DNA from: Pseudanabaena sp. lw0831
GTDB lineage: Bacteria; Cyanobacteriota; Cyanobacteriia; Pseudanabaenales; Pseudanabaenaceae
Reading direction: 5' to 3'
Length of the DNA: 64,000 nt
Assembly: GCF_016584665.1 (NCBI RefSeq)
Contig: NZ_BBJB01000012.1
Location: forward strand, 1 to 64,000
Of this stretch, positions 18,336 through 31,770 are shown one piece after another; position 1 is the first letter of the stretch; each line of letters opens with the position of its first letter. The notes under the pieces were generated by a model. That model worked only from the letters and a program-made list of their open reading frames with translations, searched no databases and was not told where the DNA came from. The translations under genes and the position numbers were made by a program.

Positions 18336-18363
18336 TTGACAATAAGCTTGCTCATGTTATAGT
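18336..18363 (+). promoter_or_regulatory. Strong sigma70-type promoter ahead of the hnh-rnc leader
   Basis: Consensus -35 TTGACA (18336-18341) and -10 TATAGT (18358-18363) with a 16-base spacer. The predicted start near 18370 lies just before the long hairpin at 18376-18632. No terminator is seen before hnh, so the transcript probably runs into hnh and rnc. Confidence 0.8.
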
Positions 18364-18375
18364 CAAATTATGCAA

Positions 18376-18632
18376 GCGAATATCAGTAGCTTGGGTGTAC
18401 GTCTTAAGTACACTACGCGCATTTCTCGGTTTAACGCATGGTTTATGTTTTGAACTAGCATTTCTGAGGAATCGGTAGTCTACTATTCTTAAAGCGATAT
18501 TGATTCAATGCATAGAATATGCGTTAAATCCAGAGGTTCGCGTAGTGTTCTTAAGACGTTTACCAACATGCATAATTGCTCTTTCTACATTTGTTGGAAG
18601 GAATATTTTGCATAACTAAACTGATATTTTGC
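18376..18632 (+). ncRNA. Long imperfect hairpin RNA (leader or separate ncRNA)
   Basis: Three successive arm pairs nest in order: 18376-18388 with 18618-18632, 18391-18419 with 18539-18566 (including ACGTCTTAAG and ACACTACGCG with their complements), and 18425-18439 with 18519-18535 (core TTTAACGCAT). The result is a rod-like RNA of roughly 260 nt right behind a consensus promoter. No coding frame is seen. It could be the 5' leader of the hnh-rnc operon, an independent RNA such as a 6S-like rod, or a large palindromic element. The first option suggests an RNase III target (inference). Confidence 0.6.
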
Positions 18633-18668
18633 TGCTAATTAAACACTAGCTAACAAAATAAACAAATT

Positions 18669-18965
18669 ATGAATAAGAAAAAAATGCGTCGTGAAATTGC
18701 CCACCGTGACGGTTCTTGTTGTTGTTATTGTGGTTGGTTTCTACCTACTCATGGAACCATTGAGCATTACTTTGTGCCTAAAAGTTTAGGTGGAACTGAC
18801 CATATCGACAATTTGAAAATTGCTTGTAAGCCATGTAATCACGATCGTGGTAATAACCCCGTACCACCACCACTAAAGAAGCCATCTAGTTTCCCTCAAG
18901 GCAATAGTTCATTCCCTGCCCCACAAAAGTATAGAAATTCCTCTTTAAATAACTCTGGCAAATAG
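18669..18965 (+). CDS. Small HNH endonuclease
   Basis: A 98-residue HNH protein. Zinc-binding pairs are CYCG and CKPC, and the HNH core is IEHYFVPKSLGG...NLKIACKPCNHDRG. It has no other domain; the C-terminal 30 residues are proline- and serine-rich and look disordered. It is the first gene after the hairpin leader and 85 bases upstream of rnc, same strand. Stand-alone HNH proteins of this size are common in cyanobacteria with unknown targets. Confidence 0.88.
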   Translation: MNKKKMRREIAHRDGSCCCYCGWFLPTHGTIEHYFVPKSLGGTDHIDNLKIACKPCNHDRGNNPVPPPLKKPSSFPQGNSSFPAPQKYRNSSLNNSGK

Positions 18966-19050
18966 CTTTTGCTCAACTAAAATCTAGATTTTATATTTAG
19001 GTTTTAGTTGATTTAAACAACTATATTTCTAACAAATAAACCCAATAAAA

Positions 19051-19734
19051 ATGCATAAACTTTTGATTTTTAATGACGAAAAATTACTTCGTCGTGCGCT
19101 TACTCATCGCTCTTTTGTTAATGAAAACTTTGATGAATCTGGACATAATGAAAGACTAGAATTTCTTGGCGATGCCATTCTCAATTTCATTAGTGGGGAG
19201 TACCTTTATGGACAAAATCCTGAAATGGCTGAAGATGAAATGACTCGAAGACGTTCTGCACTTGTGGATGAAAAGCAACTCGCTCGTTTTGCTACTGAAG
19301 TTGGACTAGATTTTAGAATCCGCTTGGGAGAAGGGGCAAAAAGAGAAGGCGGTTTTACCAATCCAAATATTCTGAGCAGTACATTTGAAGCAGTTGTTGG
19401 TGCTTATTACTTAGATAATAATCGTAATATCGAAACACTTCGTCCTTTGATAGAGCAACTGTTTGAGTCTGTACCAAAAGATGTCATGGTTGTTCGCTCA
19501 AGTATAGATTCCAAAAATAAACTTCAGGAATTTGTGCAAGCAAATGGAGCAACGACTCCTCCAACGTATGACACTGAACAGGTTGGCGGAATGTCTCATA
19601 CTCCAGAATTTCTAGCAAAAGTCTACGTTAATGGCAAAATTTGTGGTGAAGGCAAAGGTCGTAACAAGAAAGATGCCGAAAAAGAAGCTGCTGCTGATGC
19701 ACTGGCTAAACTGAAAAAACGAGGATTGCTTTAA
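19051..19734 (+). CDS. rnc: Ribonuclease III
   Basis: A 227-residue enzyme. The N-terminal catalytic domain has the signature NERLEFLGDAIL and the downstream acidic FEAVVGAYYLD; the C-terminal double-stranded RNA-binding domain spans about 152-225 (SKNKLQEFVQ, GEGKGRNKKDAEKEAAADAL). It cleaves double-stranded RNA in rRNA processing and mRNA turnover. Cyanobacteria often have two or more rnc paralogues; which one this is cannot be told. A consensus promoter and a long hairpin lie upstream of the preceding gene. Confidence 0.95.
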   Translation: MHKLLIFNDEKLLRRALTHRSFVNENFDESGHNERLEFLGDAILNFISGEYLYGQNPEMAEDEMTRRRSALVDEKQLARFATEVGLDFRIRLGEGAKREGGFTNPNILSSTFEAVVGAYYLDNNRNIETLRPLIEQLFESVPKDVMVVRSSIDSKNKLQEFVQANGATTPPTYDTEQVGGMSHTPEFLAKVYVNGKICGEGKGRNKKDAEKEAAADALAKLKKRGLL

Positions 19735-19873: not shown

Positions 19874-20089
19874 ATGATTAGAGAATTTAACGTAGTCATC
19901 GAAAAGGACTCTGACGGGTATTTTGTCGCCTCGATTCCTAACTTAAAAGGCTGCCATACCCAAGCAAAATCTCTTGATATTCTCATGGTACGCATTCAAG
20001 AGGCAGCAGAAATATGCCTAGAATTTGAGAATCAAGACAGTCCATCCACAGAATTTGTAGGCATACAGAAAATTGTAGTAGAAGTATGA
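19874..20089 (+). CDS. hicB: HicB-family antitoxin
   Basis: A 71-residue HicB protein with the partial RNase H-like fold: FNVVIEKDSDGYFVASIPNLKGCHTQA then IQEAAEICLE. HicB neutralises the HicA mRNA interferase and often represses its operon. The order hicB-hicA is used here, with an ATGA overlap into a hicA that carries a nonsense codon, so the antitoxin appears to persist without an active toxin. Confidence 0.88.
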   Translation: MIREFNVVIEKDSDGYFVASIPNLKGCHTQAKSLDILMVRIQEAAEICLEFENQDSPSTEFVGIQKIVVEV

Positions 20090-20310
20090 GCAAGCTACCA
20101 AGTTTGACAGGAAACCAACTAATCAAAGCTCTACAGAAAATTGGCTTTGATGTGGCGTGAGTAAAAGGTAGTCATCATATTCTTATTCATGCTGATGGTA
20201 GACGCACAGTAGTTCCAGTTCATTCTGGTGAAGATATTGGAACTGGACTACTTTCACAAATTATAAGAGATTGTCAGATCACAAGAGATGAACTTAGAGA
20301 CTTGCTGTAA
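20086..20310 (+). pseudogene. hicA: hicA toxin gene with in-frame TGA
   Basis: The 75-codon frame reads as a complete HicA: SLTGNQLIKALQKIGFDVA, stop, VKGSHHILIHADGRRTVVPVHSG, and a normal C-terminus. The TGA at 20158-20160 replaces a residue usually Arg or Gln just before the catalytic GSHH; a CGA to TGA change explains it. The active histidine is downstream of the stop, so no functional toxin should be made unless the stop is read through. Confidence 0.9.
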
Positions 20311-31483: not shown

Positions 31484-31770
31484 TCATCCCCCAACCCCTT
31501 CTCCCGCAGGAGAAGGGGAGCAAAACCAATATTTTTTCTTATCCCCCTCTCCTGCGGGAGCTACCGTGTACACACAAGTCATAAAACCCAGTCAAGTCAA
31601 CAATTAATCGCCCCCTAGCCCCCAATTCTGGGGGAACAAGAAAATAAAACTCTTTCAAAGTCCCCCAGAATTGGGGGATTTAGGGGGCTTAGAAAAATCG
31701 AAACGTAGACAGTTAGACTTGTGTGTACACGGTAGCCTGCGGGAGTGGGGCTAGGGGTGAGGGCTGTAGA
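31484..31770. repeat. Dispersed CCCTCATCCCC...GGGGTGAGGG repeat, interrupted by a MITE
   Basis: Two hairpins with CTTCTCCCGCAGGAGAAGG and CTCTCCTGCGGGAG arms, the same family as 24464-24560. The right part is displaced by the 175-bp element at 31561-31735; the continuation GTGGGGCTAGGGGTGAGGG is at 31746-31764. Confidence 0.8.
31561..31735. mobile_element. 175-bp MITE with perfect 20-bp terminal inverted repeats
   Basis: Ends are CTACCGTGTACACACAAGTC and its exact complement at 31716-31735. The 10-bp flank CCTGCGGGAG is present on both sides (31551-31560 and 31736-31745), a target-site duplication. There is no coding capacity; a second inverted repeat (31610-31634 with 31661-31688, CCCCCAATTCTGGGGG-like) sits inside. 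A non-autonomous DNA transposon relic, possibly moved by an IS4-type transposase (inference from the 10-bp duplication). Confidence 0.93.

Follow-up and report, generated by a model that had tools for sequence, protein, structure and literature searches.

The window, that is, the whole analysed stretch of 64,000 nucleotides from Pseudanabaena sp. lw0831, contains a promoter motif, a strongly folded leader, a small nuclease gene and an RNase III gene (rnc) in this order. The features are:

18336–18363, plus strand: sigma-70-type promoter TTGACA-N16-TATAGT (-35 box TTGACA at 18336–18341, -10 box TATAGT at 18358–18363, 16-nt spacer)
18372–18387, plus strand: closing stem P1, 5' strand (15 bp, pairs with 18620–18635)
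18394–18564, plus strand: P2, the long rod (73 bp; arms 18394–18477 and 18481–18564, loop 18478–18480)
18568–18613, plus strand: P3, small junction hairpin (17 bp; arms 18568–18588 and 18593–18613)
18620–18635, plus strand: closing stem P1, 3' strand (partner of 18372–18387)
18669–18965, plus strand: HNH nuclease ORF, 98 aa (PF14279/PF01844), the exchangeable position of the module
18973–19011, plus strand: A+T-rich inverted repeat in the gap between HNH and rnc (17 bp)
19051–19734, plus strand: accessory RNase III ORF, 227 aa (nuclease domain and dsRBD; TIGR02191, Pfam/NCBIfam)

The promoter postulated in the preliminary description was found at 18336–18363. It carries an extended TG, agrees with the consensus at 11 of 12 positions and is the best promoter-like site of the region. 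Judged from this motif, the start site would lie near 18370, and the leader (18370–18668, 299 nt) would be a 5' UTR. The leader folded with a minimum free energy of -105.8 kcal/mol, compared with -61 ± 4.9 kcal/mol in shuffled sequences (z -9.2), and none of 200 shuffles folded as stably. The long rod-like hairpin described earlier is real; its 'three nested arm pairs' form, more precisely, a three-way junction of P1, P2 (the long rod) and P3. Most pairs of P1 were preserved in the aligned Pseudanabaena relatives. The conserved base of P2 reads CGTCTTA...TTAAGACG in the window. The genome itself contains one copy of the rod, and the next best DNA matches there spanned 15–36 nt. A second very stable hairpin lies in the window at 31538–31755. 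It has 76 bp and nested terminal inverted repeats (CTACCGTGTACACACAAGTC / GACTTGTGTGTACACGGTAG) and is MITE-like.

Both ORFs were confirmed by Pfam/NCBIfam, and no plus-strand terminator-like site was found between HNH and rnc, in agreement with the earlier reading. The inverted repeat in the gap recurs, with altered sequence, in most of the Pseudanabaena copies and is possibly a second processing site. The operon is flanked by DUF433/DUF5615, hicB and parE-type genes and thus lies in a stretch rich in toxin-antitoxin genes. Behind hicB, a hicA-like frame (20087–20310) carries a premature in-frame stop (TGA near 20160).

The RNase III of the window scored 219 bits against TIGR02191 (cut-off: 166) and keeps the catalytic Glu/Asp of the motifs NERLEFLGD and FEA. 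At the position that we take, by E. coli numbering, to correspond to D114, the whole cyanobacterial clade has Ser or Cys, the 55% identical paralogue included. Of the six conserved acidic residues in E. coli RNase III, the clade preserves all but this one. With Ser or Cys at the D114 position, full activity of these enzymes is assumed here. The other RNase III genes of the same genome, C116 and C30, are 55% and ~24% identical to that of the window. Among 26 genomes of the genus, the window-type rnc occurred in about half and the 55% type in nearly all. In the tree, the window RNase III belongs to a clade spanning many cyanobacterial families. The RNase III of G281 and G264 has an N-terminal extension without the HEPN motif and no rod upstream.

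The proposal of a functional leader had depended on conserved pairing in relatives, and this was strong. Nine Pseudanabaena leaders showed double changes at 28 of the 73 predicted pairs. When 22 rod cores from several genera were aligned, compensatory (double) changes occurred at 31 of 48 pairs, and 95.5% of the cells were paired, compared with 28–43% when the partner was slid. The observed values were matched by none of 500 shuffles. The paired cells of the rod alignment comprised 132 GU and 12 AC, which argues that selection acts on pairing within the plus-strand RNA rather than on a DNA cruciform. Moreover, some 1x1 mismatches were preserved (e.g. columns 16/161, 58/118 and 63/113). Across loci, the base motif reads CGTCTYA...TRAGACG.

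The rod core is nearly constant (155–159 nt) in most HNH-type loci. Where an NYN gene takes the place of HNH, single-sequence folds often gave longer rods. In L125 (Argonema antarcticum) and L133, the predicted leader duplexes 5' of NYN and rnc reach 154 and 138 bp. The promoter, the rod and the order rod–nuclease–rnc are kept in other genera. In 54 of 57 rows, some of them near-duplicates, a TTGAC[AG] -35 box precedes the rod base by 63–95 nt (mostly 64). By these sequence comparisons, different cyanobacterial genera share the rod as a conserved RNA.

Rods were detected by z-scores together with the base motif. The pair count of the longest hairpin was dropped as a detector because hairpins of 70 or more pairs also arise in random stretches of the window. 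A regex-based rod finder also produced false matches far upstream (e.g. L109 and L040), so its output was used just for nuclease assignments and a few individual rods.

We scanned 390 genomes of the class with a covariance model of the rod (R1) and obtained matches in 33. All strong matches, whose placement was compared with RNase III positions or read directly, were found on the same strand and at most about 1.6 kb 5' of an RNase III gene of the window-type clade; the exception was G330. In that genome, the rod (L210, G330:C349) occurs without nuclease or RNase III, a transposase gene follows directly 3', and the copy is apparently disrupted. The rod is thus bound to rnc operons genome-wide, and the promoter would put the 5' end at the P1 stem, both of which favour the earlier idea of a leader acting in cis. 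The base motif was found at none of the 16 loci of the two other RNase III types that were searched. Four of these 16 upstream stretches passed a z threshold of -4.1 with other structures. Pseudanabaena sp. FACHB-1998 has two complete modules in one genome (L105 and L107), with differing rod/HNH alleles and with RNase III genes 92–93% identical to that of the window.

At the Rfam gathering score, neither the window nor eight related loci gave a match. The 6S RNA suggested earlier as a search target, and any other Rfam family, were therefore rejected. The permissive search returned chance hairpins alone, among them the plant microRNA MIR2606 (E 0.002 and 0.0098 on the two strands, far below its cut-off), which is a generic hairpin effect.

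The gene between rod and rnc is exchangeable. In distinct loci, it was HNH (29), NYN (20), YoeB (one) or HEPN-like (one). The YoeB toxin (L088 = G020) matched PF06769 with E 1e-16 and scored above the NCBIfam cut-off. The middle protein of L152 is termed HEPN-like by its RNTYIAH motif alone; Pfam, NCBIfam and PADLOC gave nothing for it. Several HNH, YoeB and HEPN-like middle proteins share a similar lysine-rich N-terminus. The HNH gene is under purifying selection, with dN/dS mostly 0.08–0.2 (about 0.16 against the G003 copy). When HNH relatives were collected from 291 genomes, 26 of the 28 best matches adjoined rnc; the weaker matches included orphans, and some of the more distant HNH genes (46–58% identity) have no rnc beside them. 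All of the seven best NYN matches adjoin rnc.

Rod and nuclease were strongly associated. A strongly folded leader (z ≤ -4.1, a threshold chosen after the data had been seen) was present at 51 of 54 nuclease loci and at 1 of 18 nuclease-less loci (distinct loci of the clade, nuclease fragments counted; Fisher p 1.4e-12, which ignores phylogenetic non-independence). The three nuclease loci without a rod (L145, L150 and L204) are degenerate or partial, and the sole nuclease-less locus with a stable hairpin (L118) does not have the base motif. With 1 of 18 nuclease-less loci, the rod does not follow rnc irrespective of the other genes. Since nuclease-less rnc genes of the same clade have no rod, self-regulation of RNase III alone fails to explain the distribution.

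Individual comparisons pointed in the same direction. L127 and L128 have almost identical RNase III genes, and NYN and rod are present in L127 only. Compared with G004, the window shows 93% identity in the upstream DUF433/DUF5615 region, 91% across rnc and 90% in the downstream flank, with no detectable similarity in the leader and most of HNH. Conversely, leader and HNH of the window are 81–86% identical to one copy in G003, the upstream flank of which is unrelated. By these comparisons, gain, loss and swapping involve rod and nuclease jointly.

The E. coli rncO element is short, and era and recO follow rnc in that operon. E. coli RNase III cleaves its own 5' UTR, which leads to rapid decay of the rnc mRNA (PMC5371410, in a passage citing Matsunaga 1996 and Bardwell 1989). 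Like the window leader, rncO is a stable duplex located 5' of the coding region in an operon that encodes RNase III; cleavage by the encoded enzyme with ensuing mRNA decay (PMC5371410) may by analogy be proposed for the cyanobacterial leader. Unlike rncO, the cyanobacterial duplex has 60–150 bp, sits in a three-way junction and is unrelated in structure. Its operon also has a nuclease gene ahead of rnc, the RNase III is an accessory paralogue, and loss affects rod and nuclease jointly.

The leader has two of the properties of an rncO-type element, namely a duplex in what would be the 5' UTR of an RNase III operon and conserved pairing on the plus strand. We consider it fairly probable that 18370–18668 forms a structured 5' leader to an operon of two genes, with autogenous control through RNase III cleavage as the most likely mechanism. 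The transcript would begin at the P1 stem, and its 5' end would be held in the three-way junction with a near-continuous duplex of 73 bp. The co-encoded RNase III (or the housekeeping RNase III) would cut the rod. The protective 5' structure would then be gone, and the nuclease–rnc message would decay. If RNase III were scarce or titrated, the message would survive. Several members of the RNase III clade have rnc without a rod, which counts against autoregulation, as does the Ser or Cys at the D114 position. The self-regulation suggested in the preliminary description is supported as far as the cis-leader is concerned, but the rnc in question is an accessory paralogue next to two more copies, and the rod tracks the nuclease. 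Since the rod goes along with a nuclease that is itself exchangeable, the nuclease, held low by RNase III, is probably the output whose regulation matters. A single RNase III cut needs far less duplex than ~75 bp. Because the full length of ~75 bp is nevertheless conserved, cleavage may not be the whole role of the rod.

The tie between rod and nuclease suggests that RNase III guards a toxin-like module. Such a toxin-antitoxin-like or abortive-infection module would consist of a nuclease toxin, RNase III as post-transcriptional antitoxin and the rod as sensor. A working RNase III would cut the rod and the nuclease message would decay; if RNase III were inhibited, lost or titrated by foreign dsRNA, the nuclease would be made. 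This model contains autoregulation and adds a purpose to it. Hence, the two readings overlap, and the confidences placed in them are not exclusive. Plain autoregulation is the best supported, and the guarded toxin is a serious, more novel extension, to which we give considerable weight without quite favouring it. The middle genes fit it (HNH, an NYN RNase, YoeB above its curated cut-off or a protein with RNTYIAH), as do the joint loss of rod and nuclease where rnc stays (L127 and L128), the swapped rod and HNH allele between flanks and rnc that are ~90% identical in window and G004, the patchy distribution and the neighbouring DUF433/DUF5615, HicB and ParE families. The layout, an operon of few genes in which a toxin-type gene is exchanged and its partner stays the same, is one expected of a toxin-antitoxin module. 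B. subtilis RNase III is, moreover, known to silence toxin mRNAs (PMC3531473). Against the model, PADLOC gave no system match, just weak HNH/NYN domain matches, and the more distant HNH genes mentioned above are apart from rnc. The HNH gene shows purifying selection and not fast diversification, and its toxicity is presumed. Relatives of the module were found in neither viral contigs nor plasmids, which also speaks against it; an origin from phage or plasmid was rejected on the same result.

The rod could instead give rise, through processing by the adjacent RNase III, to a small RNA that acts in trans or to a nuclease guide (microRNA- or omega-RNA-like). Its shape resembles a pri-miRNA, its length is near-constant (155–159 nt) in the HNH type, and the best NCBIfam match of the HNH domain is the HNH part of IscB. 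This match to IscB/IshB-type RNA-guided HNH proteins reached 42.7 bits, far below the cut-off of 175, and was limited to the HNH region. The leader had no Rfam match, omega-RNA (HEARO) included. The own genome has neither a second copy nor a long complementary target, and the rod occurs solely upstream of rnc. Unrelated nucleases (NYN, YoeB) in the place of HNH would not be expected for an RNA-guided HNH. We therefore regard this explanation as unlikely. More remote still is the reading as a MITE or transposon end, a DNA element located 5' of the genes by chance. MITE-like repeats do occur in the same genome, one of them at 31538–31755, but this reading of the rod is already contradicted by its single copy per genome, its fixed position and promoter distance, its compensatory changes and its GU excess.

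The proposed control of the nuclease by RNase III has partial parallels in known systems. RNase III is essential in B. subtilis because it silences toxin mRNAs (PMC3531473). In the prophage systems txpA/RatA and yonT, the enzyme likewise acts on a duplex that includes the toxin message, but there an antisense RNA supplies the second strand, and rnc is not linked to the locus (PMC3531473). The duplex of the cyanobacterial module would instead form within one transcript, whose operon also encodes the RNase III. Cyanobacterial HEPN–RNase III–dsRBD fusions were predicted by comparative genomics and also couple a toxin-type nuclease to RNase III; they are fusion proteins, and the section describing them mentions no structured leader, whereas the present module has separate genes and an RNA leader (PMC3710099). 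Accessory RNase III genes of cyanobacteria are reviewed in PMC10989914. Synechococcus 7002 A2542, for example, is an extra full-length RNase III besides the rRNA-maturing one, as is the enzyme studied here; the passage on such genes mentions no leader RNA or nuclease partner (PMC10989914). In the open-access literature searched, no description of the leader or of such a nuclease–RNase III operon was found; a 2006 survey of NYN domains, outside that scope, may note an NYN–RNase III neighbourhood.

Taken to its furthest, the guarded-toxin model describes a new class of self-guarding cyanobacterial module. It would comprise an mRNA with a 60–150-bp sensor, an interchangeable nuclease toxin (HNH/NYN/YoeB/HEPN) and an RNase III that cuts the message, and interference with RNase III (phage dsRNA or an inhibitor) would free the nuclease. 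We put this forward only tentatively.

The rod represents an undescribed, strongly covarying RNA family of many cyanobacterial genera that is larger than typical cis-regulatory leaders. It is linked to an accessory RNase III of a distinct kind, and with it the question of why several RNase III genes are retained in cyanobacteria can be tested directly. Should the nuclease be toxic, a general dsRNA-cutting enzyme would serve as an antitoxin through an intramolecular duplex.
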